Of a stretch of 64,000 nucleotides of DNA, positions 48,201-64,000 are shown one piece after another; the first letter of the stretch is position 1, and each line of letters starts with the position of its first letter. The stretch comes from Candidatus Mnemosynella biddleae (GTDB lineage: Archaea; Halobacteriota; Archaeoglobi; Mnemosynellales; Mnemosynellaceae). The stretch spans positions 62,001 to 126,000 of the forward strand of contig MTMI02000007.1 in the NCBI GenBank assembly GCA_002011165.2. Direction: 5' to 3'. The translations under genes and the position numbers were made by a program. Below the pieces are notes generated by a model that made no database searches, had not been told where the DNA came from, and worked only from the letters and a program-made list of their open reading frames with translations.

Positions 48201-48209
48201 ATTAATATA
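48201..48209 (+). promoter_or_regulatory. TATA box of tRNA-Glu
   Basis: ATTAATATA is centred 28 bp before the tRNA 5' end. Confidence 0.5.
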
Positions 48210-48232
48210 AGTGGAATAATTCTTCGATGAAA

Positions 48233-48307: not shown

Positions 48308-48497
48308 TGACTTTCTTCTTCTTATATGCCTCGTAGAGGGTTAAGAACTCATCGAGTAGCTCGTTTATCAATTTTGAGCGATTGAATCCGAGCTCTTCGC
48401 ATTTTCTCCACAAATCATCTCTTATTTTGATATGTCTGTCAATATATTTTCGGCCTAATTCGTCCACATTTATCCATTTGTGGATATCTTTATCCAT
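48265..48497 (-). pseudogene. integrase N-terminal fragment, int(N), left end
   Basis: Encodes the first 77 residues of the integrase (MDKDIHKWINVDELGRKYID, then an RHH-like helix pair RDDLWRKCEELGFNRS). It ends where the frame runs antisense through the tRNA (SGFEPESSARKA); beyond the anticodon stem it reads into host DNA (to a stop at 48,108) and has no catalytic domain. A TATA box (48,520-48,527, reverse strand) lies 26 bp upstream of the ATG. In the circular form this N-terminus would be joined to the C-terminal part at the right end. Confidence 0.85.
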
Positions 48498-48509
48498 AAC
48501 ACGCCGTAT
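48265..48509. repeat. left copy of the 245-bp terminal direct repeat (attL region)
   Basis: Identical over 245 bp to 63,149-63,393. It covers the 3' part of tRNA-Glu from the anticodon stem, 1 nt of acceptor-adjacent spacer, the reverse-strand integrase codons 1-77, and 12 nt upstream of that ATG. Identity stops at once on both sides. Confidence 0.9.
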
Positions 48510-48542
48510 TGTTTCGAGGTATATATCATTAATCATCCCTCA

Positions 48543-49388: not shown

Positions 49389-49956
49389 CTTCGCCTCCTC
49401 CAAAGAAATCAAATAAATTTCTAATAGAGGCTGAAACTTTAGCCTCTTCAACTAGTTCTCTTACTACTCTATCGACTTCCACTTTCGCCAAATGCTCAAT
49501 TAAATACTTGATTGAACCTCTATGGTATTTCGCTGGAATGAGAATTTTAATGAAATCCCTCTCCCATAAGATCCATCCAATTCCTGAATCCAGCAGTAAA
49601 ATCAAACTTTCAACGTTTGGAACAATGTTTCTTGTCGCAATCCACATGTAGTCGACATATTCTCTCCTTATTACAGCCTGTGAAACCACTTTTCTGAAGT
49701 CACTTTCTTTGAATTCAATGCCAATCACTCGCCTATACTTTCTGTCACTTCTCCACTCCAAGTGCATCAAAAGATCAAATTCCAGACGTTCTTTTTCTGT
49801 AAAAATCCAATGTCGTGGATATACCTCAATATTCAGATCTTCATAGATTATTCTTCTAAGATGCCAATCCACAATACAATTTGCTACATCATAAGCCCTC
49901 TTCTCTTCCCGTTTACCATTCTTATTTAGCCATTCTTTGTATTCTTTAAGATTCAT
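49378..49956 (-). CDS. PD-(D/E)XK nuclease-like protein
   Basis: 192 residues. LEFDLLMHLEWRSDRKYRRV followed by IGIEFKESDFRKVVSQAVIR gives the D...(E)xK arrangement of this fold, and YVDYMWIATRNIVP follows as in restriction-like nucleases. SSV1 and relatives carry nucleases of this superfamily (such as D212). ATG 49,956 has GCAGGAG 4 nt upstream. Part of the early operon of overlapping genes. Confidence 0.72.
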   Translation of the reverse strand: MNLKEYKEWLNKNGKREEKRAYDVANCIVDWHLRRIIYEDLNIEVYPRHWIFTEKERLEFDLLMHLEWRSDRKYRRVIGIEFKESDFRKVVSQAVIRREYVDYMWIATRNIVPNVESLILLLDSGIGWILWERDFIKILIPAKYHRGSIKYLIEHLAKVEVDRVVRELVEEAKVSASIRNLFDFFGGGEDEQ

Positions 49957-50093
49957 CTCCTGCACCTCGCAAAGCTCAGCATCGCAACAAAGTCCTCCCA
50001 AGCCTCTCCTTTCTCTATTCTCTCTTCTTTGTGAACGAGCTTGCCTCTCTCATAACTCTCAGTGACAGAAATCCTCAGAACGGTTCTTAGCAT
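49953..50093 (-). CDS. 46-aa hypothetical protein in the early operon
   Basis: A short frame with start ATG overlapping the upstream stop (TGATG), AAGGAGTG ribosome binding site, and stop overlapping the nuclease gene start. Begins MLRTVLRISVTESYERGKLV and ends FARCRR; charged and helical. Tight overlaps on both sides argue that it is a real gene. Confidence 0.6.
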   Translation of the reverse strand: MLRTVLRISVTESYERGKLVHKEERIEKGEAWEDFVAMLSFARCRR

Positions 50094-50530
50094 CACTCCT
50101 TCCCCCCGTAACGCCTTGCGAAGAACCTCTTCAGCTCATCTCTTTTCATCCTCGCAAACTCAGATCTCGAAAAAAGTATCTGCTTCTGATTCCTCCCATT
50201 CACCGACACAGCCTCTCTCTTCTCAAATCTGTCAATCTCTGTGACGAAAAACTCTTTGCCGTCGAAAACGATGAAGAACGAATCAGATCTCAGCATTTTT
50301 GCAACTTTCTTCAAGAGAACATACTCGTGAGCTGGGAGAAAGAACGTGCTGTAAGCAGAGGCATTCGCATACCTCTTGAGCTCTGCTATTGCCTCGATTC
50401 TCTTTCCAACTTCAATCACAAGATCGATGTCGCAGATGTTCAACTTTTTCCCATTCAGAGATATTGAAAGTCCAACATCAACAGGCTTATACGGACAGTT
50501 TTCACAAAGCTGAATCTGTCTCGAGATCAT
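50093..50530 (-). CDS. Cas4/Hjc-like PD-(D/E)XK nuclease domain protein
   Basis: 145 residues. ICDIDLVIEVGKRIEAIAELKRY shows D...ExK spacing (given in parts: ICDIDLVIE, AIAELKRY) typical of RecB/Cas4-type nucleases. CENCPYKP near the N-terminus gives a CxxC, but the four-cysteine cluster of Cas4 is not complete. The C-terminus is basic (MKRDELKRFFARRYGGKE). No cas genes or CRISPR nearby, so a viral recombination or repair nuclease is more likely. Confidence 0.65.
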   Translation of the reverse strand: MISRQIQLCENCPYKPVDVGLSISLNGKKLNICDIDLVIEVGKRIEAIAELKRYANASAYSTFFLPAHEYVLLKKVAKMLRSDSFFIVFDGKEFFVTEIDRFEKREAVSVNGRNQKQILFSRSEFARMKRDELKRFFARRYGGKE

Positions 50531-50533
50531 CGC

Positions 50534-50662
50534 CTAAACCTCCACGACAGTAAAATATGGGCAATGTCCACATCGCCTAAATCCACATTCCTCCGGTTCG
50601 AAATCATCTCTGACTGCAGACATGTAGTAATAAGAATACGGGTTTTCACAGACTCCTTTCAT
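50534..50662 (-). CDS. 42-aa cysteine-rich small protein
   Basis: Frame starting MKGVCENPYSYYYMSAVRDD and containing ECGFRRCGHCPYF, so five cysteines that could bind zinc. The ATG overlaps the stop of the zinc-ribbon gene (TGATG), AAAGGAG is just downstream for reuse, and 3 nt separate it from the Cas4-like gene. Confidence 0.6.
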   Translation of the reverse strand: MKGVCENPYSYYYMSAVRDDFEPEECGFRRCGHCPYFTVVEV

Positions 50663-50823
50663 CAAAACCAGCCTCCTAAACCATCACCATACTGCTCTCT
50701 AAACGCATTGATACCTTCCCTAATACAATTCCAACAGAATACTTCCCCATCAATTTCATAGACCATTCCACCTGAACCGCAGCAATCACAAACTCCTTCA
50801 CGTTTTTTCATCTTCTCCATCAT
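50662..50823 (-). CDS. 53-aa zinc-ribbon protein
   Basis: Starts MMEKMKKREGVCDCCGSGGM and continues with FCWNCIREGINAF, giving CDCC and CWNC knuckles of a zinc ribbon. ATG overlaps the stop of the RHH gene and its stop overlaps the next ATG. Likely DNA-binding or protein-interaction module of the virus early region. Confidence 0.65.
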   Translation of the reverse strand: MMEKMKKREGVCDCCGSGGMVYEIDGEVFCWNCIREGINAFREQYGDGLGGWF

Positions 50824-51029
50824 TCCTGCACCTCCTCAGAAGCAGAAGCGAGCTTATCAGCTCTGACAAAACCATGCCTCTCTGGATTAATTCCGAGAAG
50901 TCCCTTCTCCACGAGGTCTTTTTTGATGAGTTCTCTGATGTATGGCGAGATTTTATCCCAACCCTCTATTTTAGCCGCTTTTCTGATTAGTTCGTTCCAT
51001 CTTGGGGGAACATCACTCCATACCTTCAT
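50820..51029 (-). CDS. RHH-like small DNA-binding protein
   Basis: 69 residues. KVWSDVPPRWNELIRKAAKI, then ISPYIRELIKKDLVEKGLLG has the strand-helix-helix order of CopG-type regulators. First gene of the seven-gene early operon reading toward the tRNA. Controls probably its own promoter and the divergent winged-helix gene. Confidence 0.72.
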   Translation of the reverse strand: MKVWSDVPPRWNELIRKAAKIEGWDKISPYIRELIKKDLVEKGLLGINPERHGFVRADKLASASEEVQE

Positions 51030-51040
51030 GTTGATTTCCT

Positions 51041-51142
51041 CCTACTTAGTGGAATATATTCTACAAAATGTATTTAAAAGTTTCTAAAAATCAACTTAGT
51101 AGGAAGTTCTCAAGCTACACTTATTAGTTTCTAAAACTCAAC
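51041..51142. promoter_or_regulatory. divergent early control region with repeats
   Basis: Between the RHH gene and the winged-helix gene (51,030-51,151). It has GAATATATTC (51,052-51,061), a palindrome doubling as TATA box of the RHH operon, and two copies of AGTTTCTAAAANTCAAC (51,079-51,095 and 51,126-51,142, one mismatch). CCTACTTAG (51,041-51,049) is nearly repeated inverted as CTTAGTAGG (51,094-51,102). Such layered repeats suggest a genetic switch bound by both flanking regulators. Confidence 0.6.
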
Positions 51143-51151
51143 ATCATTGTA

Positions 51152-51517
51152 ATGCAGAAACAAAATGAAGAACAAAGTGAGTTTAGAAACATCTTGAAAA
51201 CATTAGGCAAACGTGGTGGAGTGGAGATTCTCTTTGCTCTAAAAGATGGAAGGAAAAAATGGGCAGATCTCGAAAAAGCAGTAAAAGAGAAAAAATCAAC
51301 ATCTTTTAGGATTAAAGAACTTCTGCGCTCTGGATTAGTTCAAGTTATTATAATTCACGATACTCCAACCGGAACAAAATATTATCAGCTCACTCCATTT
51401 GGAGAAAAGATTCTCGAAAAAATTGAGGAGATTGAAAGACTCGTTGAGGAGGAGAAAAAGAAGAGACTTCCGGAAGAGCCGGAAGAGTTTGTTGGAGAGA
51501 TTTTAAAGGATGAGTGA
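51152..51517 (+). CDS. winged-helix transcriptional regulator
   Basis: 121 residues. KRGGVEILFALKDGRKKWAD, SFRIKELLRSGLVQVIIIHD and KYYQLTPFGEKILEKIEEIE form an ArsR/HxlR-like winged helix with a C-terminal coiled coil. Divergent from the early operon. It probably represses or activates one side of the divergent region. Confidence 0.78.
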   Translation: MQKQNEEQSEFRNILKTLGKRGGVEILFALKDGRKKWADLEKAVKEKKSTSFRIKELLRSGLVQVIIIHDTPTGTKYYQLTPFGEKILEKIEEIERLVEEEKKKRLPEEPEEFVGEILKDE

Positions 51518-51581
51518 GTCCAATAAATTGCTAAAGAGATTTTAAATAGATGCGTTAGGGGCAGAGGTTAATAGAAAGACT

Positions 51582-51590
51582 AATATAAAG
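51582..51590 (+). promoter_or_regulatory. TATA box of the ATPase-TOPRIM pair
   Basis: AATATAAAG is centred 27 bp before the ATPase ATG, so the mRNA is likely leaderless. Confidence 0.5.
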
Positions 51591-51612
51591 CGAACTTCCG
51601 AGAATACATACG

Positions 51613-53022
51613 ATGAAGTTAGTTGAAAATGGAGAATATAAGATAACAGAAATTAAGATTAAGAACTTTAAAAGTCTTAAAGACGTTAAAATTGAACTTA
51701 AAGGATTTAATCTGCTTGTTGGTCGTAATGGTGCGGGAAAAACGAACATCATAGAGGCTTTTAAACTCCTTAGAGAAATAAGACGATCCCCCGATTTTAT
51801 GTATTATAACCCATTCCATGAGTGGAGAGGGTATCAGAATGTAGTTTGGCGTGGTGAAGAAAAATTACCCATTACCTTATCTTACAAGCTTCATATACAG
51901 GATTATGAAATTTATTATGACATTTCTGTAACTGGCATTGGAGGTAGGTTTGAAGTTCTTAGAGAGAGTGTTAGTGTATCAAATGTGGTCAACATCATTC
52001 GTGAAGGAAATAAAGTTATAATAAAACACGCTCCCGAATTTATTGAGAGTGTGTGGAACGGTATTAAGTCGTTCCACCTACCTCCATTTTTGTGGAAATC
52101 CATCTCAAAAGAGAGTAAAGACTCATTAATTTACCAAGAGTATGAGTTACAAGATTCCTCTCCATGGAAACTTCTACCATATTATGGATACAGTGCCCAC
52201 TATAATGAGGGAATTGCAATTATGATCTTTAGCATACCCACCAAAAACGGCTCTCCACCGATACTTGTCTCTCCGGTTATTGAAGTTAGGAGAATGATGG
52301 CTGTTAGGAAATTTGGCAAATCTGAAATGAGAGAAGAGATCCATAGAGAACCCCTTATAGGATATGTTCTATTTCCTCCGAGAATGCAAAATATTCTCGT
52401 ATTAAAACAATTAAATTTCAAAGCAATTTCCGAGCCACATCTGGTTAAGAGAGAGATTATGCTATCGGAAGATGGTAGCAACTTAGCAAACGTACTCCAT
52501 ACAATGTACACAGACAAAGGAGGAATCCCTCCCAAGATTCAGAGAGTCATTCGGTATATTTTTGGTGATTTGGAGATTGGTATGCACTTAACAGAGGATG
52601 GAAGGGTTCAAGTTCAAGTATATGAAGATGGCTACCCCCTCCAAGGTTCGATGATTCCAGATGGCTTTTGGAAAGTATTGAGCATTCTTGTAGCTATCGA
52701 ACTAAAACCTACTCTGATATTGATAGATGAGCTGGAAAACTCACTCCATCCAGAGGCAATTGAATACATCGTATATGAACTGAAAAATTCGGGATGTACG
52801 GTAATAGCTTCCACCCACTCGCCAGCAGTAGTAGATATAGTAGAGCCAGAAGATTTGATTTTAGTTGAGAGAGATATAGAAGAGGGAACTAAAGTAGAAA
52901 GAATAAAGGATGTAGAAGCAGTGAAGCGTTGGTTAAGGGAGAGAGGAATAACGTTAAGTGAGGGGTGGCTTTATGGTTCGATCTTCTCAGAGGAAGGGAA
53001 GGAAGATCTTGATACTATGTGA
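51613..53022 (+). CDS. SMC/RecF-like ABC ATPase (OLD-like, RloA-type)
   Basis: 469 residues. ITEIKIKNFKSLKDVKIELK and NLLVGRNGAGKTNIIEAFKL (Walker A) open the protein; a long middle insert follows; then SMIPDGFWKVLSILVAIELK and LILIDELENSLHPEAIEYIV (signature-like and Walker B), with ASTHSP as H-loop. This ABC-AAA fold is common in defence genes such as OLD, PtuA and RloA. The downstream TOPRIM-like gene overlaps it by 50 nt. Confidence 0.85.
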   Translation: MKLVENGEYKITEIKIKNFKSLKDVKIELKGFNLLVGRNGAGKTNIIEAFKLLREIRRSPDFMYYNPFHEWRGYQNVVWRGEEKLPITLSYKLHIQDYEIYYDISVTGIGGRFEVLRESVSVSNVVNIIREGNKVIIKHAPEFIESVWNGIKSFHLPPFLWKSISKESKDSLIYQEYELQDSSPWKLLPYYGYSAHYNEGIAIMIFSIPTKNGSPPILVSPVIEVRRMMAVRKFGKSEMREEIHREPLIGYVLFPPRMQNILVLKQLNFKAISEPHLVKREIMLSEDGSNLANVLHTMYTDKGGIPPKIQRVIRYIFGDLEIGMHLTEDGRVQVQVYEDGYPLQGSMIPDGFWKVLSILVAIELKPTLILIDELENSLHPEAIEYIVYELKNSGCTVIASTHSPAVVDIVEPEDLILVERDIEEGTKVERIKDVEAVKRWLRERGITLSEGWLYGSIFSEEGKEDLDTM

Positions 53023-53512
53023 GGATCGGTACGGAAAACCTTTTTTTGAGAAATTTGTTGAAAGATTAAAAAACGAAGAATTGATTCGAACCTCACAAAA
53101 AGTTGACGTTAAACATCTTCCTGGAAAATGCTATCCTAAGACTGATCGGGTTTTAAGAGCTCTTGACTTTAAAGATATAAGTAAAATAATTATTGTCGCG
53201 GATGCAGAGGGTGGAGATTTAGAGCATGCAAGAGAAGAAGTTGAACAACATGTTCCGAATCACCTTAAAGATCTTACAAGATATGTTATACTTCCATATT
53301 CTATTGAGGATTGGTTGTGTGATGGACTAAATATTGGAGGATCCAAATCCATTCCTTCTTTTCAACGCTTACGTAGTTATGTTCGAAATACAAGAGGAGA
53401 AAGTTATGAAAAGAACATGTTGCCGGAATTTGCCTCTAAGATTGATATAGAGTTACTACGTGGAAAAAATGAAGAATTTAAGAAGTTTATAGATTATTTA
53501 AATTATCTGTAA
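52973..53512 (+). CDS. TOPRIM-like protein (DUF4276/RloB type)
   Basis: 179 residues. ILILCEDRYGKPFFEKFVER has the conserved Glu of the TOPRIM strand and IIIVADAEGGDLEHAREEVE the Asp-rich second motif; SIEDWLCDGLNI and GKNEEFKKFIDYLNYL come later. Such proteins pair with ABC-type ATPases (RloAB, OLD) in antiphage systems. ATG 52,973 has GAGGGGTGG upstream. Together the two likely form an ATPase-nuclease complex. Confidence 0.78.
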   Translation: MVRSSQRKGRKILILCEDRYGKPFFEKFVERLKNEELIRTSQKVDVKHLPGKCYPKTDRVLRALDFKDISKIIIVADAEGGDLEHAREEVEQHVPNHLKDLTRYVILPYSIEDWLCDGLNIGGSKSIPSFQRLRSYVRNTRGESYEKNMLPEFASKIDIELLRGKNEEFKKFIDYLNYL

Positions 53513-53549
53513 AAATTGAGAATCAACTTAATGGAAGTGTAAACTTTAT

Positions 53550-54656
53550 TTAGTCATCATAAGACACACCATATTCTGATAAATCTTTATACTGTTTTGC
53601 AATCTCCTCTTTTATCATTTCCTCTGCTCTCTTAAGTGATTTTTCTTTTGAATTCTTAGTTACGTAATTTTCTATGTATTTTCTCTCCAAATTATCTTTC
53701 ACAGTGTCCATGCGCTCTCCTCTACAGAGGATTCGATATCTGTCTTGAGATATTTCTTCAAAAATTTCATATTCTAAACCGTGAGTTATTATTTCATCTG
53801 CTTTTCTCTCTGCAATAACTCTTCTTTTCTCATCATCTATTGCTAAATCTTCAAATTCTTCGACTAACTTATCTACTACTTCACTACGGGTGAACTCTTT
53901 TGGGTTTAAGTCCCCATATCTATACTTTGTCACATAAATTTTCTCATAGATTATTTTTTCAATGTATCTCCATGGATGAGAAGAATATTCTAAATCTAAA
54001 TTACATATCGATTCAAATTGTGGTGGATCGCTCATAATCTTCTCAAATTCTTCATCAAGATGGTGACCAAATGTTTTTATTATTCTAGTCTCCCTCTCTA
54101 ATACTACCCAAACTATAATTTTCCTAATATCATCTAATTCTAGCCCCCCAAATACTGAACTACTTTTATTTCCTGTCACTCTATTAATATGAGCTTGAAT
54201 AGATTGTTGGAGAGCTTCATGAGTAATAGTGTCTACACAAATAATATATTCTGCTTTGTCAAAAGTGAATCCTAAAATCTTTTCAAGCTGTTGTTGATAT
54301 TTTTTAAAAGAGAGAATTTTCTCCACAAAACTTTTTAGTTCTACTCTTGTGGAAGTTCCACCCTTACACTCTATAAGCGAGATTATATTTGTTTTAATAT
54401 TAACTGCTATTAAGTCAAAAATTGCAATATTATCTTCCTCTAAAGAAATATCGAGCAACGGTTCTCTCAGTACGACAATATTTTCGTCCAGATTTGAAAG
54501 AAAAGATTTACAATCTCTAAGAAGGGAACAATGCCGTTTATCTAAATCAATACTCCGATGAAGATTTGCTCTAATATTATTCTCCACTTCACTTATTATC
54601 TCTTCAGCTCTTTTCTCTATCCTCTCCCTCAGTTTACTCTTCTTTTTTCTTGGCAT
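53550..54656 (-). CDS. PD-(D/E)XK nuclease-like protein of an unknown two-gene pair
   Basis: 368 residues. A basic coiled N-terminus (MPRKKKSKLRERIEKRAEEI) precedes a nuclease core: AIFDLIAVNIKTNIISLIEC with Asp, then SLIECKGGTSTRV (ExK) and a helix KILSFKKYQQQL. The C-terminal 150 residues are charged and helical. Lies 6 nt downstream of the next gene on the same strand, so they are one unit. Region is more A+T-rich than the host flanks. Confidence 0.68.
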   Translation of the reverse strand: MPRKKKSKLRERIEKRAEEIISEVENNIRANLHRSIDLDKRHCSLLRDCKSFLSNLDENIVVLREPLLDISLEEDNIAIFDLIAVNIKTNIISLIECKGGTSTRVELKSFVEKILSFKKYQQQLEKILGFTFDKAEYIICVDTITHEALQQSIQAHINRVTGNKSSSVFGGLELDDIRKIIVWVVLERETRIIKTFGHHLDEEFEKIMSDPPQFESICNLDLEYSSHPWRYIEKIIYEKIYVTKYRYGDLNPKEFTRSEVVDKLVEEFEDLAIDDEKRRVIAERKADEIITHGLEYEIFEEISQDRYRILCRGERMDTVKDNLERKYIENYVTKNSKEKSLKRAEEMIKEEIAKQYKDLSEYGVSYDD

Positions 54657-54662
54657 ATTAGA

Positions 54663-55766
54663 TCAAGTTAAAGAAGCATTTACATCAAGGAATGATTTTA
54701 CAGACTGGAAAAATCTAAGAGAAGACCCAAAGTCAAGGGTTTTAGATGGATACACCTTTAAGTCCTCATTTCTACAGATTACTGAGAACTCATTTGGCTT
54801 CATCATATCTATGACTCTAAAGTAACTAAAGTCTAAGAATTCTGAATTTTCATCATTTCTCTTAATATCGACATCTATAGGTAAAAATTCCCACTCACTC
54901 TCTAAAACTTTAATAAATTCCTCAAACTTTACGACCTCAATAATTTCAGATAATTTCACAGACCACGGAAATTTTAAGCTTGTTTTAAATTCTTTTCTTC
55001 CAACTTTCATAGGTTTATCAAAAACATGGGCTTTGGTGATTTTTTCTTTTGAAATATCGACTTCTGAAATAATTTCATCCATAGTCTGACAAACAAAGCT
55101 AAAAGAGGATCTTGGTTTAGCAACTACTATTCCTTGATAATCCAACCTAAATGTCCCATAACCTAATATATTGAACTCAAATACTCTGGGAAGTATTCCA
55201 TATTCGTATTTAAACTCTTCATATGATTGGAGTGCATCATCTCCTCTATACTCTACAAATCGCGTTAAATTCGGTCTCCTCTCCGCTTTTCGTTTGAAGA
55301 GCGGACTATATGTCCCTGTAAAGTACGTTGCAGTTATATCATCTTTATATTCTTCTTTAAGATTTTCAATTAATTCATCCATTCTTGTTAAACTTATCCA
55401 TAAATTAGAGATATTTTTTGCTCTCTTCAAATAATCGAGCAATGTTGGAGGTATCTCTTTTGTTTTAGTAGCCAAAGTGAAGAAAATTGGATTTCCATCC
55501 TCAGTATATAAAGCAAGATACTCCACATTTCCGTATTTTTCAGAGTGTTTTAATAGACGGAAAACTATACCATGAGCGGAAACCACCCTAAATCCAGATT
55601 TTTTAAGATCTTCGAGAAATTCTTCTGGAGTTTTAAAATTTGAGAGAGTGAAAATTGCTTTAATAGATGTTGAAGCATCTCTCAATATATCGTCTACATA
55701 TCTTATAAAATCCTCAGAGTCGTTAAAATTTTCTCCTTTAAGCAGTTCCCCCATCTTCATAGCCAT
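54663..55766 (-). CDS. hypothetical protein, partner of the nuclease
   Basis: 367 residues; I recognise no family. Alternating alpha/beta, no membrane helices, no clear catalytic motif. Strings such as YLALYTEDGNPIFFTLATKT and FEFNILGYGTFRLDYQGIVV suggest a beta-rich centre. First gene of the pair with the nuclease. Its own promoter contains AGAATATATTCT (55,782-55,793). Could be the sensor or immunity part of a defence or toxin system; this is inference from position only. Confidence 0.6.
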   Translation of the reverse strand: MAMKMGELLKGENFNDSEDFIRYVDDILRDASTSIKAIFTLSNFKTPEEFLEDLKKSGFRVVSAHGIVFRLLKHSEKYGNVEYLALYTEDGNPIFFTLATKTKEIPPTLLDYLKRAKNISNLWISLTRMDELIENLKEEYKDDITATYFTGTYSPLFKRKAERRPNLTRFVEYRGDDALQSYEEFKYEYGILPRVFEFNILGYGTFRLDYQGIVVAKPRSSFSFVCQTMDEIISEVDISKEKITKAHVFDKPMKVGRKEFKTSLKFPWSVKLSEIIEVVKFEEFIKVLESEWEFLPIDVDIKRNDENSEFLDFSYFRVIDMMKPNEFSVICRNEDLKVYPSKTLDFGSSLRFFQSVKSFLDVNASLT

Positions 55767-55781
55767 CAGCCCGAATTAGTT

Positions 55782-55793
55782 AGAATATATTCT
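55782..55793. promoter_or_regulatory. palindromic TATA element shared with the early operon
   Basis: AGAATATATTCT is a perfect 12-bp palindrome 16-27 bp before the ATG of the 54,663-55,766 gene. Its core GAATATATTC recurs at 51,052-51,061 before the RHH operon. Confidence 0.5.
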
Positions 55794-55926
55794 GTTAACA
55801 ACCCTTAGCAAACGATACTCTCTACATTAACATTGTCTGAGTCATTTACAATATAATATTTTCTACATATTTTCTTGCTCACCTCTGCACCTCTCTCTGT
55901 TAGATTCGAGCCCCAGAAAACTATTT

Positions 55927-56178
55927 TTATCTAACTTCACTATACTCCTCCATCGCCTCTCTTACTTTTTCCTCATCTATCAGATACATCATCACCTCCC
56001 AGAGTTCTTCCATCAAATCCTTTCCCATTTCGAGTTTAATCTGTTCGAAATCCACCCTGAAAATTCCATTCCTCATCGATATGCTGTTTCTGAGTGCTAT
56101 CTTCCTCGCATCAACTGAAACTGCGTGATCTTCTCCATTTCCACTTTTAACAGTTACTCGGAGTCTGAAGTCTCCCAT
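55927..56178 (-). CDS. hypothetical protein
   Basis: 83 residues: N-terminal strand-rich FRLRVTVKSGNGEDHAVSVD then two acidic helices. No family known to me. It stands between the cargo pair and the late operon, 160 bp from the former, which has no gene I can support (55,767-55,926). Confidence 0.5.
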   Translation of the reverse strand: MGDFRLRVTVKSGNGEDHAVSVDARKIALRNSISMRNGIFRVDFEQIKLEMGKDLMEELWEVMMYLIDEEKVREAMEEYSEVR

Positions 56179-56269
56179 ATTTTAGTGTTTATCCAATTGA
56201 AGTGACATAAGGTTAAAGTGAGAGTGAACTGAAAGTATTAGAAAATATGATCTTCCAATGCTTGTTAGA

Positions 56270-56482
56270 TTATAATTTAAATAAAATTTTGATTGATATA
56301 TAACCACAAAAGTAGAAAAATAATACAAAAAACATGAAAATAAAATAGTTCAAAATTGTTGGATTGGGATAATCTAAAATAAATTTGCTGGCCGCAAGAA
56401 TTGTTGTTCCAGCAAAAACTCCACTAAAGTATGCTATTTTGTAATCTCTCAATAACTCTTCTCTGCTACTACTCATAGTCAT
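56270..56482 (-). CDS. two-helix small membrane protein
   Basis: 70 residues. Two hydrophobic segments (about residues 18-37 and 45-66) with a short charged N-terminus (MTMSSSREELLRDYK). TATA box TTTTTATATAAAC at about 56,501-56,513 predicts a transcript beginning at ATG 56,482, so it seems to be a separate, leaderless gene. Confidence 0.6.
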   Translation of the reverse strand: MTMSSSREELLRDYKIAYFSGVFAGTTILAASKFILDYPNPTILNYFIFMFFVLFFYFCGYISIKILFKL

Positions 56483-56545
56483 AATCAATGTGGTCATCTG
56501 TTTATATAAAAATAAGGAACTCCCTCGAAAGTATTTCCAGAAAAT

Positions 56546-57424
56546 TCACCCTCTGCTTTTAACACCGTTTAAGCTCTCCTCCTCTAGGAGTGAATGCTCG
56601 AAAACTCCTTTGTAACGGACTCTCCCAAGGCTCTCTCCATCATCATAGCGAGGAAGTTTGATTATATCGCTAAAGAGCTTAGTTGGATAGACTATAATGC
56701 ACTCATCAGTTTTAAGCTTCTCAAACAGAGGATTGAATCTCTGCAATTTCGGTTGGTCTGAGCTAAAAGATGCCCCTCTTCTGCATATTATCCAGTTGAA
56801 ACAATCTCTAACTCCCTTCTTAATTTTCGTCCATCCTTGAGTTGTTGCAACAAACCGAATCTTAAGACTCCTCAGTCTTTCGATGTTCAGCTGAACAACC
56901 GACCCATAACGATAGTGCTTTTCTGAGAGTCCATGTCCACGAGCTGGTGCAACAGTATGAAACTCATCATAAAAAATCGTGAGTGGAGTTTTGATCCTGT
57001 ATTCGTGTGCATAGCGAATCAATGATGTGAAGATTTTAGCAACAACCTCAGTAAAAATAACTGGATCCAGAATGAAACTCCATATCGTTATAACGTTGAT
57101 TCTGTTTTCATCCAGTCTCATCCAGATCTCATTTAAATCTCCGATGTATGTTTTACTCACGTCTATTTCTCTCTCGCTCTCAATTTCAACATCTAAACCC
57201 TCGGGAATTAAGAGATTGAGCTCTTTCATTGTCGAAAGTGTGAGAATCTCACTTGATTTTCCAGAATCAAACCAAACAATAGTATCTTTGCTATGGTGAA
57301 TCAAACCCTCAAGAATCCAGTATAAGCCTTGAGTTTTCCCACTTCCAGTTATTCCAACTTCTATGAGATGTTCTCCGCTCCTCTTCAGAAATTCCTTAGT
57401 GAATCTGCCGATCCATCCCTCCAT
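56546..57424 (-). CDS. FtsK/HerA-superfamily packaging-type ATPase
   Basis: 292 residues. Walker A EVGITGSGKTQGLYW, Walker B TPLTIFYDEFHTVAPARG, and an arginine-containing IRFVATTQGWTKIKKGVRD, in a single RecA-like domain. Fuselloviruses (B251) and many tailless archaeal viruses have such an ATPase for genome packaging or virion assembly. It is the last gene of the late operon and overlaps the gene upstream by 29 nt. A decayed homologue occurs at 63,500-63,650. Confidence 0.82.
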   Translation of the reverse strand: MEGWIGRFTKEFLKRSGEHLIEVGITGSGKTQGLYWILEGLIHHSKDTIVWFDSGKSSEILTLSTMKELNLLIPEGLDVEIESEREIDVSKTYIGDLNEIWMRLDENRINVITIWSFILDPVIFTEVVAKIFTSLIRYAHEYRIKTPLTIFYDEFHTVAPARGHGLSEKHYRYGSVVQLNIERLRSLKIRFVATTQGWTKIKKGVRDCFNWIICRRGASFSSDQPKLQRFNPLFEKLKTDECIIVYPTKLFSDIIKLPRYDDGESLGRVRYKGVFEHSLLEEESLNGVKSRG

Positions 57425-57785
57425 CTCCCCACCTCGTTGCATAGACCTCCTGAAGAATCTTTGGATTCACGAGTTCGTAGTCGTTGATAAGTGTGAGGAG
57501 GTCTCTTATGACCTCATCGAGAACAATCTCAAAAGCTATTTTCTTCTCAAAAACCTCAAGAGACGCATCCATCACTGGTTCATAGCTTTCTCTAAGCAAT
57601 TTCAGTTTCTCTTCAATTTTTTCAAGCCATTCTAAAGCCTCTTTATCAGCATATTTCAGCATCGCATATGAGCAATTGAAGATAAAGAACGCAAGGTTAA
57701 GCCTCCTGTAAATTTGAGAAGATGATGAGCGAATAAGCGTGAAAATCGCATCTGCCAAGTGATATGCAAGAGGATTCGAGCTCAT
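57396..57785 (-). CDS. hypothetical helical protein
   Basis: 129 residues, helical with one hydrophobic stretch (LNLAFFIFNCSYAMLKYA) and a long amphipathic helix (ALEWLEKIEEKLKLLRESYE). Overlaps neighbours at both ends (29 and 4 nt). No family known; late-operon gene. Confidence 0.6.
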   Translation of the reverse strand: MSSNPLAYHLADAIFTLIRSSSSQIYRRLNLAFFIFNCSYAMLKYADKEALEWLEKIEEKLKLLRESYEPVMDASLEVFEKKIAFEIVLDEVIRDLLTLINDYELVNPKILQEVYATRWGDGGMDRQIH

Positions 57786-58153
57786 CTCCTTCTCCTCCAG
57801 AATCTGAGGGCTGAGAGCCAGCCTCTCTTAGTCTCTTCCTCCTCATTTTCGAACTCATACGGGATAACAGAATATGATGGTCTCTTCTTCATGACTTCAA
57901 CGAATTCCTGTCTTCCTAGCCTGTCTCTGCTTCTTCTGAGAGAAATCAGCTCTTCAACGAACTTTAAAGTAGCTGGAATCTCTATGATGTGCTTGTTTAG
58001 AGCTCTGAAAAGTGCAATGGCAGTTATTTCCTTTTCATGCAAGTCTGTTAGAGCATCATTCAGCTCTTCGACAAGCAAATCAATCTTCCTCAATCTCTGA
58101 AGCTCAGGAGAATACTGAGTTACTCTTTCTCTTAACATCTCCTCATAATTCAT
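57782..58153 (-). CDS. hypothetical helical protein with basic C-terminus
   Basis: 123 residues. Long amphipathic helices (LRKIDLLVEELNDALTDLHE) followed by acidic EFENEEEETK and basic tail RGWLSALRFWRRRR. No family known. The arginine tail could contact DNA or membrane phosphates. ATG overlaps the next gene's stop by 10 nt spacing on the operon. Confidence 0.6.
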   Translation of the reverse strand: MNYEEMLRERVTQYSPELQRLRKIDLLVEELNDALTDLHEKEITAIALFRALNKHIIEIPATLKFVEELISLRRSRDRLGRQEFVEVMKKRPSYSVIPYEFENEEEETKRGWLSALRFWRRRR

Positions 58154-58163
58154 CTATTTCACC

Positions 58164-58559
58164 TCAGAAGAAAAGAGCACCTACTATCCAACCTAAAATG
58201 ACTCCGATTATCAGGGATGCGATGATCTGACGTGTTTCGACTCTTATCGAGAATGCTTGCTGGATTAGTCTGCTGTCAATTATCTTCCCAACGAGATCTG
58301 GATTCGTCTTCAGCTTGAGAACACTATCATCTCTCTCAACTTCAACCGTGCATCCTTTTTCAGAATCAACAAGATAAGCTATCTTCCTCTTCTTCCCATC
58401 TTTAAGAATGATTGGCTTTGTTGCTATTGTGTAATGTCTTCCTATAAGTCCATCTACGAGCATATTTCCGTCTTTAGTGACTTTTCCAATGACAACTTCT
58501 TTCAGCCCGTTATCAAAGGCTATAATATCGATTTTCTCTCCTCTTCTGAAAATTCCCAT
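58164..58559 (-). CDS. tail-anchored membrane protein
   Basis: 131 residues: a soluble beta-rich domain (residues 1-95; EKIDIIAFDNGLKEVVIGKV, GCTVEVERDDSVLKLKTN) and one C-terminal membrane helix (ASLIIGVILGWIVGALFF). This tail-anchor form is common for membrane-associated virion or assembly proteins. No known family. Confidence 0.62.
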   Translation of the reverse strand: MGIFRRGEKIDIIAFDNGLKEVVIGKVTKDGNMLVDGLIGRHYTIATKPIILKDGKKRKIAYLVDSEKGCTVEVERDDSVLKLKTNPDLVGKIIDSRLIQQAFSIRVETRQIIASLIIGVILGWIVGALFF

Positions 58560-58560
58560 T

Positions 58561-58800
58561 TTATCTCCTCCTCAATCGTTTTGCGAGAATGAGTGCACTG
58601 TAAAGCGATCTCTCTCTTTTAGTAACTCCTCCTTTCTTCAGTCTCTTTATTTCCTTATTCAGATACTCCATTTTAATCTCTCCACCTCTCGTGAACGCTT
58701 TATTTCCGTATTTCCTCTTCAAATGTCTTCTCACTCTTCCCGGTCTTTTAATCGCTTTTTGAATCCATTTTTTCTTTCTTCTCAAATTTCCCACCCCCAT
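58561..58800 (-). CDS. small basic WIQ-AIK-PG protein
   Basis: 79 residues, strongly basic. KKWIQKAIKRPGRVRRHLKR at the start followed by a helix EYLNKEIKRLKKGG and ending SLYSALILAKRLRRR. I recall the W-I-x-x-A-I-K-x-P-G pattern as recurring in short proteins of many phages and archaeal viruses, often near structural genes, so it supports a virus. It may coat DNA, as VP2 does in SSV1. Confidence 0.65.
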   Translation of the reverse strand: MGVGNLRRKKKWIQKAIKRPGRVRRHLKRKYGNKAFTRGGEIKMEYLNKEIKRLKKGGVTKRERSLYSALILAKRLRRR

Positions 58801-58915
58801 TATTCAAATACTTCTTTTTAACGAATCTATTAGCTTTAAAAATCGTCTCCTCAATGCTTTTTGCGTGAAACTCAGCTATTTTACATCCATTATCTATTAT
58901 CACGATCTTGAACAT
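58748..58915 (-). CDS. 55-aa hypothetical protein
   Basis: Begins MFKIVIIDNGCKIAEFHAKS and ends KKEKMDSKSD. A strong GGAGGG precedes the ATG. It overlaps the WIQ-AIK-PG gene by 53 nt in another frame and starts 11 nt after the upstream gene's stop. Overlap size makes it less certain than its neighbours. Confidence 0.45.
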   Translation of the reverse strand: MFKIVIIDNGCKIAEFHAKSIEETIFKANRFVKKKYLNNGGGKFEKKEKMDSKSD

Positions 58916-58925
58916 TTTCCCTCCC

Positions 58926-59840
58926 TCATGTTGGTTTTAGAGCCTGAACTATGCTCGAAATTGTCGTAACTATTGATCTGATAATCGAGATGACAAAATT
59001 GAAGAGTTCGATGTGCATTTTAGCAAATCTTGAAAAGAACTGAAGAATATCACGTGAAAGAGACGCATATATTAGCGTGAACGATTCAAATAAGATAAAA
59101 ATCAGCAGGAAGTTATCTACAAAGATGAAAATGAATAAGGAGATGAATGTGTAGAAAAGAGAGTAAAGCTTAGAGAAAATTAAAAACATTTCTTGAGCAT
59201 ATGGAATTGAATAAATGAGATCTCTAACTGCATCTGTTAGAAATTGAGGTAAAATCGATGGAGATTCTTCTTCAATGATTTCGTAATAGTCCTCTGTTGT
59301 CATATAAATTACTTCAACATGAGCTTGTGTGGTTGAATAAAATTGAACTTCTGAAAATGCAATATAATAGGGAAGAACGAGATTCATGTTCTCAGGTATG
59401 AGATCAATGCTAAATGGATTCAAATAGACGTAAATATCAACATCTAAGCCTATTCCTTCATCTAACTGAGTTAAAGTATATTGTATTCTTAAATCGTAGT
59501 CTTGTGCTAATAATTCGAGAACTTCCAAAGATTGATTATAAATTTGTCCTTCTGGTGTCTCCAATTGTATGAAAAAGCTTTTCCATCCGTTTAAAGTCCC
59601 GAAAGAACTTGAGTTTACGGTAATTGTGTAAATTTTTCCATAAGCATCCATTATGAAAGTCTGATTTGAGTTGAAGGCTATGTTTGTTGCATAGATTGAT
59701 GTGATAACGTAACCATCTTCAACCGTATAGTTTGCTTCTGTTACCTCTCCTAAATCTGCTGTGTAATAATCTGTTGCTGAAGCAGGGATCATGAAAATTG
59801 GAAGTAGAAAGAGGAAGAGCACGAGAATTCTAATGTTCAT
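58926..59840 (-). CDS. secreted protein with C-terminal membrane helices
   Basis: 304 residues. A signal peptide (MNIRILVLFLFLLPIFMIPASA) leads to a beta-rich extracellular domain (residues 23-215), then two or three hydrophobic helices (YSLFYTFISLFIFIFVDNFL, LIFILFESFTLIYA) and an amphipathic end. No family known. It probably is a virion envelope or spike protein; overlaps the next gene with ATGA. Confidence 0.6.
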   Translation of the reverse strand: MNIRILVLFLFLLPIFMIPASATDYYTADLGEVTEANYTVEDGYVITSIYATNIAFNSNQTFIMDAYGKIYTITVNSSSFGTLNGWKSFFIQLETPEGQIYNQSLEVLELLAQDYDLRIQYTLTQLDEGIGLDVDIYVYLNPFSIDLIPENMNLVLPYYIAFSEVQFYSTTQAHVEVIYMTTEDYYEIIEEESPSILPQFLTDAVRDLIYSIPYAQEMFLIFSKLYSLFYTFISLFIFIFVDNFLLIFILFESFTLIYASLSRDILQFFSRFAKMHIELFNFVISIIRSIVTTISSIVQALKPT

Positions 59841-61009
59841 CTTCTCCTTCTCCCCCCAGCCATTTTGAAGAGGTTCAAAAGTGCTATCAGGATAACAAGA
59901 GAAACTAAGGAATCGAGGTTAGAATAGAGAACATATAAAGCTGTATTCACTTTCTCAGTTTTTATTATATCCAGTTGTTCTTCAGAGATTACAGCAGGAG
60001 TAGGTGTTGCTGTTCCGTTTGTAGCTCCTCCTCCTGTGTCTGGTTGTGTTACAGAGAAATTAGAATCGAAAGTATATGTATTCGCTTGAGAGCCTGAAAG
60101 ATAAACTGCTAAGTTTGTATCATATATTTCTCTTCCTTGCTGGAACCCTGAGTGACTTATTGACCATGAGCTTTTATTACTCCAATCCAATAATCCATTT
60201 TTTAACGGAACAACATAAGATGCTGAACCCATTTGCATCGCTATTTTTATGTATGCTTTAGTGTCCGAGATGAGTAATAATCCGCCGTATGCAGTTCCGA
60301 ACACGTCATTGTCTGTTGTGAAAAGCTGTATTTGTGTTCCGTTGTGTGCAAAAACCACAACTCTGGCAGGATATGTAGAAGATGAAGTTCTGTAATCATG
60401 CACAACGTAAACGTAGTCATGATTTACCGCTAATCCAGAAATACCCTGAGTATATGAACTTCCTCCTAGATTCACAGTTTTAAATTGTGCAATAGAGCCG
60501 TAATTTGAAAGGTCTATGTAGTATATTACCGATTTTGTGAAAAAGTAAATTCTATTTTCGATTGGAGCTAAACCACGAGCACCGCCATAAGATCCAAGTT
60601 TAATGAAGTAATTTGGATCATCTTTGTAGAGATAAAAATCAAGAGGATTGGTTGAAATTGAGTTTCTGACCCATATCTCTCCGTTTGAGAGAATGAAATA
60701 AACTTTATGATTTGATGCTATGCACAATGAGTTAATTGAGCTTGAAATATTTGTAACGATAATTGCATCTGAATAAGTTCCATCTTGGTTTAATGCAACG
60801 TAACGAATTCTATATTTCGTTGTGCCATTGTCATCATAACTTTGAGCATAAAGAAACTGAGCTCTCTCGTCTGCGGTCATAAATTTATAGCCAGCCCCAA
60901 CAGAAACAACGTTTGAACCTATTGTTAGAGCACTCGAAGGAGTGGTTAAAGCACTCATAGATGCTATAAGGATGAGCGAGATAATGAGAGCGGAGATAAT
61001 TTTCCTCAT
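59837..61009 (-). CDS. large secreted membrane-anchored protein, candidate receptor-binding or spike protein
   Basis: 390 residues. Signal peptide (residues 1-27), then about 290 residues with repeating strand-rich segments (VYVVHDYRTSSSTY, IYFFTKSVIYYIDLSNYG, KVYFILSNGEIWVRNSI) that look like a beta-propeller. A Thr/Pro/Gly linker (GGGATNGTATPTPA) precedes one membrane helix and ends GRRRR. This stalk-and-anchor layout suits a spike or adhesin of an enveloped virus, or a cell-surface protein. Confidence 0.65.
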   Translation of the reverse strand: MRKIISALIISLILIASMSALTTPSSALTIGSNVVSVGAGYKFMTADERAQFLYAQSYDDNGTTKYRIRYVALNQDGTYSDAIIVTNISSSINSLCIASNHKVYFILSNGEIWVRNSISTNPLDFYLYKDDPNYFIKLGSYGGARGLAPIENRIYFFTKSVIYYIDLSNYGSIAQFKTVNLGGSSYTQGISGLAVNHDYVYVVHDYRTSSSTYPARVVVFAHNGTQIQLFTTDNDVFGTAYGGLLLISDTKAYIKIAMQMGSASYVVPLKNGLLDWSNKSSWSISHSGFQQGREIYDTNLAVYLSGSQANTYTFDSNFSVTQPDTGGGATNGTATPTPAVISEEQLDIIKTEKVNTALYVLYSNLDSLVSLVILIALLNLFKMAGGRRRR

Positions 61010-61010
61010 C

Positions 61011-61313
61011 TTATCCCTCCGTTAAAAACCTGAGATTATTGTATGCTATGAGAAGATAGAGGAGGTTTATTGAAAAAGAGGATAATTTGAACGCCTTTGC
61101 ATCCATGTGATAGATCTCATAAAGAAGTAAAGCGATTAAAACTGTTAAGACAATTTTCACAGGCGTATAGAGTTCTAGTGTCATCAGAGATGCCATAATG
61201 GGATTTCCTTCATGTCCCCTTCCAGAAGAAATGAGATAGGAAGTTGTGATAAAGTCGAAGAGGCTCAAAAGAACGAATACTGAGATTAATAAGACTGCAT
61301 GACTCTTTTTCAT
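61011..61313 (-). CDS. four-helix small membrane protein, DUF5658-like
   Basis: 100 residues, three or four membrane helices. FDFITTSYLISSGRGHEGNP followed by IMASLMTLELYTPVKIVLTV is the E-G-N-P pattern I associate with DUF5658. Shares 4 nt with the gene upstream. Role unknown. Confidence 0.58.
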   Translation of the reverse strand: MKKSHAVLLISVFVLLSLFDFITTSYLISSGRGHEGNPIMASLMTLELYTPVKIVLTVLIALLLYEIYHMDAKAFKLSSFSINLLYLLIAYNNLRFLTEG

Positions 61314-61663
61314 CTTATTATCACCCTTCCAATTATGTATCCTGTTGCAACTATCACAACGAAGAAAAGAGCATAGCTCAGAAATGTTGGCATGGTTGCC
61401 TTAAAGAGCTCAATTGCATTCAGAGGATTTGAGAACCAAACCTGTTCTGTGGGCTTGAAAACAAAGATGTAGCTAGTATTATCTGAGAGCGTTATGGTAT
61501 CTGTTGTGTTATATTCTCCTATGAAATTGCCTTGAGCATCGTAAACTAAAATTTTCACGTCTTTTTTCAGATTTAAATCGCTGAAAGTGATTGTTATTGC
61601 AGATGCTGAAGTTACGAGAGAGAGCACTAAAAGAAAAGAGAGAAGAAGAGGAACCGCTCTCAT
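61310..61663 (-). CDS. small secreted protein with C-terminal anchor
   Basis: 117 residues. Signal peptide (MRAVPLLLSFLLVLSLVTSA), short beta-domain (ITITFSDLNLKKDVKILVYD, GEYNTTDTITLSDN) and one membrane helix (FLSYALFFVVIVATGYIIG). No known family; virion membrane protein by context. Confidence 0.6.
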   Translation of the reverse strand: MRAVPLLLSFLLVLSLVTSASAITITFSDLNLKKDVKILVYDAQGNFIGEYNTTDTITLSDNTSYIFVFKPTEQVWFSNPLNAIELFKATMPTFLSYALFFVVIVATGYIIGRVIIR

Positions 61664-61669
61664 CTCTGC

Positions 61670-61990
61670 TCATCTCCTGAAGGTTCTGAATGCATCCTGA
61701 ATCGCACCTATGATTCCATCGAAAAGCCCGACGACGAATCCGACAATAACCAGAATCAGCAGAATTGGAACTACTGCGATCACGAGATTTCCAATGCTTG
61801 GCATCAATTCACCAGCACCAGTTATTACATCGCTAATCTGAGTCCAGTTGACAGAAAGGGTTTGTGTGCTCTCATTGGTTTGTGCAGATGCGAGGGTTGG
61901 AGAAACTGCAACCATTAGAGCGAAAACGAAAACCATTATCTTCGCTTTATGTTTCTTCACTCTCACTTTTATTTTAGTCATAAATTTCAT
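61670..61990 (-). CDS. small membrane protein, candidate major virion protein
   Basis: 106 residues. ATG 61,990 has GAGGTG 7 nt upstream. A signal-like segment (IMVFVFALMVAVSPTLASAQ), a short Asn/Thr/Ser-rich loop, then a very hydrophobic segment (GNLVIAVVPILLILVIVGFV) and an amphipathic end (AIQDAFRTFRR). First gene of the late operon. Size, processing and two hydrophobic helices recall the major coat proteins of spindle-shaped viruses, but I cannot show homology. Confidence 0.6.
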   Translation of the reverse strand: MKFMTKIKVRVKKHKAKIMVFVFALMVAVSPTLASAQTNESTQTLSVNWTQISDVITGAGELMPSIGNLVIAVVPILLILVIVGFVVGLFDGIIGAIQDAFRTFRR

Positions 61991-62068
61991 TCTTTCTTTC
62001 ACCTCCTCAGAAAATACAGCCATTATTTCGATTTTTTCAAAAATTAGAAGATAAAATAGCCGAAATCT

Positions 62069-62100
62069 GGAGAAATTCTCCGTATATGGAGAGATACTCC
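62069..62100. promoter_or_regulatory. tandem GGAGANATNCTCC palindromes upstream of the late operon
   Basis: Two 13-bp palindromic units, GGAGAAATTCTCC (62,069-62,081) and GGAGAGATACTCC (62,088-62,100), are separated by GTATAT. The central CTCCGTATATGGAG is also nearly palindromic. They lie 79-110 bp before the first late gene and next to the RHH gene end; likely operators of a repressor. Confidence 0.6.
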
Positions 62101-62129
62101 ACCATTTGTTACCGTTCACGAACAAACAA

Positions 62130-62303
62130 TTAGTGGAGGAGATTTCTTTCTCTAAGGTATTTCTCAAGAGCGATGTTTATTACATCGCTGATGTTGAATC
62201 CATGAGCTCTCAGAATATCGAGAAGTTCTCTCTCAATGAGAACATGAACATCCTCACGATTCTTTCTCTCAACCTTCAAAATTCTCTTCATTACAAAGCT
62301 CAT
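62130..62303 (-). CDS. 57-aa RHH protein, candidate lysogeny repressor
   Basis: Begins MSFVMKRILKVERKNREDVH and continues VLIERELLDILRAHGFNISD, VINIALEKYLRERN: beta strand, helix and helix of the ribbon-helix-helix fold. Starts inside the integrase gene 3' end with GGGAGGT 5 nt before the ATG. Located between integrase and the tandem palindromes, the same position and size as F55, the RHH repressor of SSV1 lysogeny. Confidence 0.72.
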   Translation of the reverse strand: MSFVMKRILKVERKNREDVHVLIERELLDILRAHGFNISDVINIALEKYLRERNLLH

Positions 62304-63381
62304 AACCTACCTCCCTTATCGGGAATTTATCAACAATTTTCGAATACCACTTATCAGCATCATCTCTAAGATCGAGATAGTTGAAGTTCTCAACACTCTT
62401 TGAGATCTCAGAATGTCTCCCTAAGATGAAGTTCCTCTCATCTTTTGGAACTCCACATCTTTTGAGGAAGTTATTAACCCACTTGCGAATGTATTTAGCT
62501 GAGACCGTCTTTTTGCTTGTTGTCTTGAAATTGATCATGTCAACCACTTTCTTATATTCGAGTTCCACTCGTTTGAGCCTCTTCGCCAACCACAGAGGCA
62601 TATAACACTCGTATGAATCTTTGTTCTCACTTCCGATTCCACTCATATCATAGCGAGCAAAGTTCTCAAAGACTTCAAGTTTCGCTGGGTTGAATGTTGC
62701 GAGCATCTGAATGAGATGCTCAAGTCTTAGACCGCTAAAAACGAGTAGATAAAAGACATTCATCAGATCGTCATCGAGCCTCTGTTTGAAGTATTTGTGA
62801 GCTTCAATGATATCGTCATTTGAGGGAATTTGTTTATCAGTTCCTGATTTTGGGATTTTTAACACTGTCTTGAATTCTTCTGCAATCAACTTTGGAAAGC
62901 CTCTCTTTTCTACCAAGAAATTTAGGAGATTCCTCACTCCTTTAGCGAAGTTTGCTCTGTTTTTTTCAAGCTCATCAAAAATTTCTTCAAGATCCTCCTT
63001 ATCGAAAATCTTCACACCTAAGAGTTTTTTATCCAAGAGCGAGACATAATTCTGCCATGTCGTCTTTTTATTTCTCTTCTGAATCCACTCAAGAAACTCC
63101 GCTCTATGCTTTTGATAATCAATATAGAAGAATTCTCTGAGTTTGTAAGCCTTTCGAGCCGACGACTCGGGTTCAAATCCCGACCGGAGCATGACTTTCT
63201 TCTTCTTATATGCCTCGTAGAGGGTTAAGAACTCATCGAGTAGCTCGTTTATCAATTTTGAGCGATTGAATCCGAGCTCTTCGCATTTTCTCCACAAATC
63301 ATCTCTTATTTTGATATGTCTGTCAATATATTTTCGGCCTAATTCGTCCACATTTATCCATTTGTGGATATCTTTATCCAT
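62269..63381 (-). CDS. int: SSV-type tyrosine integrase, intact across the right attachment site
   Basis: 370 residues. Residues 1-77 equal the int(N) at the left end (RHH-like DNA-binding region plus the antisense-tRNA peptide SGFEPESSARKA). The catalytic part has SGLRLEHLIQ (first Arg), YIRKWVNNFLKRCGVPKDER and GRHSEISKSVENFNYLDLRD with the nucleophile Tyr in NYLDL. A TATA box TTAATATTTT (63,401-63,412) lies 26 bp before ATG 63,381, so leaderless; an upstream in-frame ATG is at 63,417. Unusual: the gene is whole although the element is integrated. Confidence 0.88.
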   Translation of the reverse strand: MDKDIHKWINVDELGRKYIDRHIKIRDDLWRKCEELGFNRSKLINELLDEFLTLYEAYKKKKVMLRSGFEPESSARKAYKLREFFYIDYQKHRAEFLEWIQKRNKKTTWQNYVSLLDKKLLGVKIFDKEDLEEIFDELEKNRANFAKGVRNLLNFLVEKRGFPKLIAEEFKTVLKIPKSGTDKQIPSNDDIIEAHKYFKQRLDDDLMNVFYLLVFSGLRLEHLIQMLATFNPAKLEVFENFARYDMSGIGSENKDSYECYMPLWLAKRLKRVELEYKKVVDMINFKTTSKKTVSAKYIRKWVNNFLKRCGVPKDERNFILGRHSEISKSVENFNYLDLRDDADKWYSKIVDKFPIREVGYELCNEENFEG

Positions 63382-63393
63382 AACACGCCGTAT
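63149..63393. repeat. right copy of the 245-bp terminal direct repeat (attR region)
   Basis: Identical to 48,265-48,509. Begins with the 3' half of tRNA-Glu, without the 5' half, and carries integrase codons 1-77 plus 12 nt upstream. Sequence beyond 63,393 differs from that beyond 48,509. Confidence 0.9.
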
Positions 63394-63499
63394 GACTTCC
63401 AAAATATTAATTATCAAACATTAAAAAGAGACTGGAAAGAAAAAATAAGGAGAGAAGAGAAATTGAGCTGGATAGATTCTCTTTTCTTGACAAAGTCCA

Positions 63500-63650
63500 T
63501 CTGGAGGGAGGAACCATTTCCCCCATCTCAATACAGATTTATTCAAAATCCATGCCGAAACTCCTCTTTTAATCTTCACATATCCCGTATAGCTGCAATA
63601 AAGCAAATTTTAAGACTTCTCAGTCTCTCGCTGTTAATTTTCACCTCAGA
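63500..63650 (-). pseudogene. decayed packaging-type ATPase fragment
   Basis: On the reverse strand, one frame reads VKINSERLRSLKICFIAA, close to VQLNIERLRSLKIRFVAT of the ATPase at 56,546-57,424. After a frameshift another frame reads YVKIKRGVSAWILNKSVLRW against WTKIKKGVRDCFNWIICRRG. Both pieces are contiguous and in the same order as in the intact gene. No start or Walker motifs remain. It is outside the element, between the right repeat and trpC; a remnant of an older related element. Confidence 0.7.
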
Positions 63651-63664
63651 GCACACTCGCCTCT

Positions 63665-64000
63665 TCACGGAGCTCTTACAAAATTCCTAACAATCTCCCT
63701 AAGATTCCGAGCTCTCATGAAGGCTGTACCTATTAACACGGCATCTGCGCATTTCAGAGCTCTAGTTAAGTGCTCCAACGTGCTTATACCGCTCTCACTT
63801 ATCTTTAAAGCATCTCTTCTCACATATTTATACAGTCTCTCCGTAACTTCAACGCTTCCATCATCTTTTTCCATTTGGAAGATATCTCTGTTATTGATTC
63901 CTATCATTGGGGTTCTTGTCTCATTTACAATAGCGATATCCTCGGTTGTGTGCACCTCTACAAGAGGTTCTACTCCATGCTCTAGCGCATAATCCACAAA
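63665..64000 (-). CDS. trpC: indole-3-glycerol phosphate synthase, C-terminal part
   Basis: 111 codons of the C-terminal half of TrpC; the 5' part lies beyond the window. GVEPLVEVHTTEDIAIVNET, GINNRDIFQM and ISESGISTLEHLTRALKCAD are the fixed strands and phosphate-binding loops of this TIM barrel. Marks the return to host sequence. Partial because of the window edge, not because of damage. Confidence 0.88.
   Translation of the reverse strand, partial: FVDYALEHGVEPLVEVHTTEDIAIVNETRTPMIGINNRDIFQMEKDDGSVEVTERLYKYVRRDALKISESGISTLEHLTRALKCADAVLIGTAFMRARNLREIVRNFVRAP

Follow-up and report, generated by a model that had tools for sequence, protein, structure and literature searches.

In SSV1 and SSV2, pTN3/TKV4 and the pT26-2 family, the attachment core corresponds to the 3' part of a tRNA gene and is contained in the integrase gene. 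When the element integrates, int is divided, and its parts int(N) and int(C) come to lie at opposite ends (PMC8371274). With such suicidal integrases, excision takes place once a complete integrase is provided, and natural excision is believed to require an integrase from outside (PMC8371274, PMC5495485); in vitro excision between attL and attR has been carried out with the pTN3 integrase (PMC5495485). The routes known for the persistence and spread of proviruses that destroy their own integrase are the supply of a helper integrase by another element and the formation of a chimeric integrase by recombination (PMC8371274). Elements inserted in tandem at a single locus have also been described, as have int remnants at tRNA genes (PMC8371274, PMC6563490, PMC3718332).

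The locus described here lies in a 64-kb window (the whole stretch of DNA that was analysed) on contig C7 of a 1.5-Mb genome assembled in 11 contigs, whose class-level relatives are Archaeoglobi. It shares the core placement and the split integrase with the systems above, whereas its repeat spans 245 bp where about 44 bp is usual, and a full-length frame is back at the right junction. We regard it as a real and well-anchored instance in which a relict int(N) has rejoined, in cis, the frame of a split integrase.

An SSV-type provirus with a rejoined integrase frame

The features of the provirus, its target site and its repeats are listed below; G027 and G008 are genomes carrying related proviruses.

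48233 to 48307, plus strand: tRNA-Glu(TTC), the restored target gene at the left junction (ARAGORN)
48308 to 63191: integrated spindle-shaped-virus element of 14,884 bp, the length being the start-to-start spacing of the repeats
48265 to 48509: left repeat copy, with core 48265-48307 and int(N) 48308-48509
63149 to 63393: right repeat copy, with core 63149-63191 and int(N) 63192-63393
48308 to 48536, minus strand: int(N) of the resident provirus, its start ATG 48536-48534 conserved in G027 and G008
62269 to 63148, minus strand: int(C), the catalytic part (Pfam PF16795), for which the SSV1 integrase catalytic domain is the best match in fold
62269 to 63417, minus strand: rejoined integrase frame of 382 codons, running through int(C), core and int(N)
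56546 to 57442, minus strand: the provirus's own packaging-type ATPase gene, intact and homologous to the relict fragment described below

Integrated in an Archaeoglobi genome, the element is a provirus of the SSV type. It encodes a homologue of VP2, the fusellovirus DNA-binding virion protein, at 58561-58800 (Pfam PF25632, E 1.5e-26), as is characteristic of a spindle-shaped, fusellovirus-like virus, and relatives of its ATPase are present in other Archaeoglobi proviruses. ORF 61670-62167 shows two hydrophobic stretches by eye and is without a significant match to capsid families (VP1/VP3-like). An OLD/AAA_21-type ATPase gene (51613-53022, plus strand), oriented against the majority of the provirus, is overlapped by the gene downstream of it (52958-53512, plus strand), and this pair resembles two-gene defence modules (best PADLOC call HEC-01A; second gene a weak mad4 match). 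The host part of the window contains a 119-bp direct repeat (34122-34240 and 34848-34966, 77% identity, 726 bp apart), and a second, diverged integrase with an internal TGA in the same genome (G000:C9:3986-4798, L009; 29% identity) is probably another decayed element.

The segments 48265-48509 and 63149-63393 are the same over 245 bp, with zero mismatches, and are made up of 43 bp of the tRNA-Glu 3' part (the attachment core) followed by 202 bp of int(N). A perfect repeat of this length ending at a tRNA is far beyond chance, and the measured identity of the two copies bears out the proposal of an earlier note on this DNA that the repeat sets a second int(N) beyond the right attachment site. 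The left int(N) fragment corresponds to ORF 48108-48536 (minus strand), the frame of which continues through the tRNA to 48108, while int(C) matches PF16795, an archaeal virus integrase domain, with an E-value of 6.6e-41. The attachment site is thus the tRNA 3' part inside the integrase gene, with int(N) (48308-48536) and int(C) (62269-63148) at opposite ends of the element; the same arrangement is found in G027 and G008, and the SSV-type split integrase that the note had recognized is confirmed.

Integration of this type is expected to leave no intact integrase frame, yet a frame of 382 codons is present at the right junction. It is open across the right attachment site and sets the second int(N) in frame with int(C), as had been read before, with the 43-bp core coding for VMLRSGFEPESSARKA. 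This in-frame junction is not a coincidence, since the core is itself coding sequence, and this fixes the frame, relative to int(C), of any int(N) of the family that adjoins it. The int(N) that completes the frame lies outside the element, and the SSV-type class of the enzyme is not in doubt; the loss of an intact frame on integration is a consequence of the splitting and not a property of the enzyme itself. All catalytic residues (Arg...Arg...Arg...Tyr) are retained in the rejoined frame, with Arg231, Arg311, Arg334 and Tyr347 invariant among nine relatives and their catalytic role assigned from the family, and a structure model of the rejoined protein finds its best PDB fold match in the SSV1 integrase catalytic domain. 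Single-protein searches of viral and genome collections gave no matches; an alignment-based search recovered named Archaeoglobi relatives.

Start codons and possible expression of the two int(N) copies

The conserved start of int(N) is the ATG at 48536, 13 codons upstream of the ATG at 48497, and the int(N) of G027 and G008 have the same longer N-terminus, with Tyr, Glu and RVMDK at matching places. Given that a purine-rich GGAGGG lies upstream of this start and that only 6 nt separate it from the stop of the preceding gene (ORF 48543-49451), the left int(N) is probably translated within an operon. The ATG at 48497, and at 63381 in the right copy, is an internal Met. The earlier note had taken this shared ATG, 26 bp from a TATA box in both copies, as the integrase start, a reading that fails because the relatives start at the 48536 position; the left TATA box itself consists of the codons GAT ATA TAC (Asp-Ile-Tyr), which read GAT ATA TAT in the G027 relative.

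The right copy offers, in frame, a TAA at 63423, TTG codons at 63417 and 63402 and a first ATG at 63381, and upstream of its int(N) neither the conserved ATG start nor an evident ribosome site was found. A better fit was obtained by aligning in frame from a TTG start, and a frameshifted ATG start at 63424 was rejected. Initiation at 63381 would remove the first helix, which is predicted at low confidence. Of the "whole, promoter-bearing" integrase claimed earlier, the whole frame of 382 codons stands; the description in full is unsupported, the normal ATG being absent in the right copy. Judging by its position, trpC, which lies upstream on the same strand, could supply read-through transcripts to the rejoined frame.

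Origin of the second int(N)

Comparison with the junctions of relatives brings out what sets the right junction apart. The G027 provirus (Archaeoglobi; about 11.3 kb) is integrated in tRNA-Glu between direct repeats of 44 bp and that of G008 in tRNA-Pro between direct repeats of 46 bp; each has one int(N), with unrelated host sequence beyond int(C). In G001, a different species and the sole other genome of the same genus/order that was compared, about 10 bp separate tRNA-Glu from the end of trpC, and no int(N) lies between them. In the window, trpC is likewise the first host gene, but 473 bp (63192-63664) intervene. Judged by the G001 junction, the right int(N) copy is foreign DNA, and an origin as ancestral host sequence is rejected. 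The G001 tRNA-Glu itself (G001:C47, L055, 4266-4356) has about 15 extra bases in the anticodon region and is called tRNA-Arg TCG by ARAGORN; a small intron there would interrupt the attachment core and might block the window's integrase.

The right flank contains the following features:

63394 to 63420, minus strand: diverged first codons of an older int(N), LIINI-LEV against MINDIYLET, directly outside the identical tract
63511 to 63659, minus strand: relict ATPase fragment, frameshifted, matching residues 178-226 of the provirus ATPase
63665 to 64000, minus strand: trpC (indole-3-glycerol phosphate synthase, PF00218), the host gene right of the relict; the complete gene extends to about 64387

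Positions 63594-63635 align with the provirus ATPase gene on the same strand at 83% over 42 nt, a score reached by 0 of 1000 shuffles, and a frameshift-aware alignment of 63511-63659 scores 82 against 29 +/- 4 for shuffles (maximum 42). Two homologues from other genomes score 67 and 65; the nearest sequence is the ATPase of the window's own provirus, with 63% DNA identity overall to the resident gene. In the relict as in the provirus, int(N) is followed by the ATPase on the minus strand, a further gene of a related virus thus being found in the expected order and strand. For 63394-63420, comparison with three int(N) starts gave a combined p of 0.0024 at the protein level (5000 shuffles) and a weak p of about 0.07 at the DNA level alone. 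By these matches the 473-bp insert is largely viral. Sequence comparison gives good support to an earlier, related provirus of which two pieces are left, on account of the ATPase pseudogene fragment and of an int(N)-ATPase order and strand matching those of the provirus. The suggestion that an earlier element had left its int(N) there is in this way substantiated, by the fragment at 63511-63659 together with the int(N)-free tRNA-Glu/trpC junction in G001. A tandem second element still present to the right of the window was rejected: trpC, enolase and other host genes follow, with no further tRNA-Glu 3' copy nearby.

The 202 bp of int(N) are 100% identical between the copies, synonymous sites included, beside relict sequence that is only about 60% alike. 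By computation, a run of 202 bases without a difference would hardly be expected between sequences of 90% identity or less. Common descent with the rest of the relict is excluded, since these 202 bp at 100% stand against 63% in the relict ATPase and against the diverged first int(N) codons. The simplest account is that the virus and relict copies recently exchanged a tract by homologous recombination or gene conversion, its limit being the point at which they cease to be similar; either copy may have served as the donor. The need for such an event was absent from the earlier note.

We contend that the locus is quite probably the product of two related SSV-type viruses that arrived in succession at tRNA-Glu, with conversion between their int(N) sequences and a rejoined integrase frame as the outcome. 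A first SSV-type (suicidal) spindle virus would have integrated between tRNA-Glu and trpC and decayed, and its remains are an int(N), a broken ATPase gene fragment and about 85 bp of unassigned DNA. A second, related virus would then have recombined at the same 43-bp tRNA core, which in SSV-type geometry puts the resident int(N), in frame, straight past the right attachment site then formed and automatically gives int(C) a full-length frame. During or after this integration, 202 bp of the relict int(N) may have been overwritten by the virus copy, or the reverse, through homologous recombination or gene conversion. The rejoined frame is perhaps expressed by read-through from trpC or from the TTG or internal ATG starts, and the integrase, if expressed, could excise the provirus without a helper; self-excision by the rejoined integrase is a plausible hypothesis.

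The main rival to conversion is a near-identical tandem copy of the same virus, nearly all of it deleted, that left its own int(N), the ATPase fragment then being a still older relict. This would explain the 100% identity directly and without gene conversion, and archaeal cases of tandem insertion at a single locus are on record (PMC8371274, PMC6563490). However, it requires three elements and a deletion end falling by chance in the first int(N) codons, and the sequence directly outside the repeat still resembles a diverged int(N) start; we therefore judge it a rather unlikely course of events. Two related elements of about 6.7 kb do stand in tandem beside tRNA-Asp in another genome (G018:C1, L090, 7833-20000); they were set aside as a parallel case, their integrases appearing unsplit.

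Less probable still is that the arrangement reflects a choice made in assembly, in which a free circular virus bearing a single, whole integrase gene was joined through the 245 bp to a chromosome that has tRNA-Glu, relict int(N) and trpC. Both resolutions have identical junction sequences, and 245 bp exceeds usual short-read k-mers in an assembly of 11 contigs. Against this, the contig is unbroken through both copies, and integration of this kind is seen in related proviruses; even under this reading, the int(N) on the host side, next to 63394, would be real. Elsewhere, a sequence pair that is identical over its first ~100 bases and then diverges sharply may be another exchange tract or an assembly overlap.

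It is very hard to credit that the int(N) on the host side belongs to the host as an ordinary gene, or has been retained for the host's own use as, for example, a DNA-binding regulator, for while it is an open frame by itself and its predicted strand-helix-helix unit (low model confidence) suggests DNA binding, it is absent at the same junction in G001, has lost its normal start, is flanked by a viral pseudogene and has no Pfam match as a regulator, the Pfam search of int(N) having found no ribbon-helix-helix.

Comparison with known proviruses

Tandem SSV-type insertion is known already, and the new part of the succession of two viruses favoured here is the rejoined frame and the proposed conversion tract. 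In the literature surveyed, of which coverage was partial, no remnant completing the integrase frame of a later provirus and no conversion tract is described; priority is not claimable. The locus offers a third, directly testable route beside helper and chimeric integrases, namely rejoining in cis with a relict int(N), and the suggested exchange between relict and virus would bear on the evolution of int(N), att and int(C) as separate pieces. It can be speculated further, as a long shot, that relict int(N) at tRNA genes are landing pads that make a suicidal integrase reversible, that every virus arriving at one recovers a complete integrase, that recombination with the arriving virus keeps the pad matched, and that helper-free, self-excising lysogeny recurs.

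As in the remnants of tandem insertion described before, successive elements have apparently used one target and int remnants overlap the tRNA (PMC3718332, PMC6563490, PMC8371274). The catalytic domain shares its fold with that of SSV1. With the Archaeoglobus provirus ArcVen-P3, as far as the available part of its description goes, the window has in common an Archaeoglobi host, an SSV-like split integrase and a VP2 homologue, whereas that part gives perfect 55-nt repeats in tRNA-Ser and makes no mention of a second int(N) (PMC4158269). The G027 provirus is like that of the window in its target tRNA, in its int(C) and int(N), which share 73% identity with those of the window, and in a homologous ATPase (45%), and differs in having a 44-bp repeat only, with host sequence past the right site, where the window has a relict int(N) in frame.
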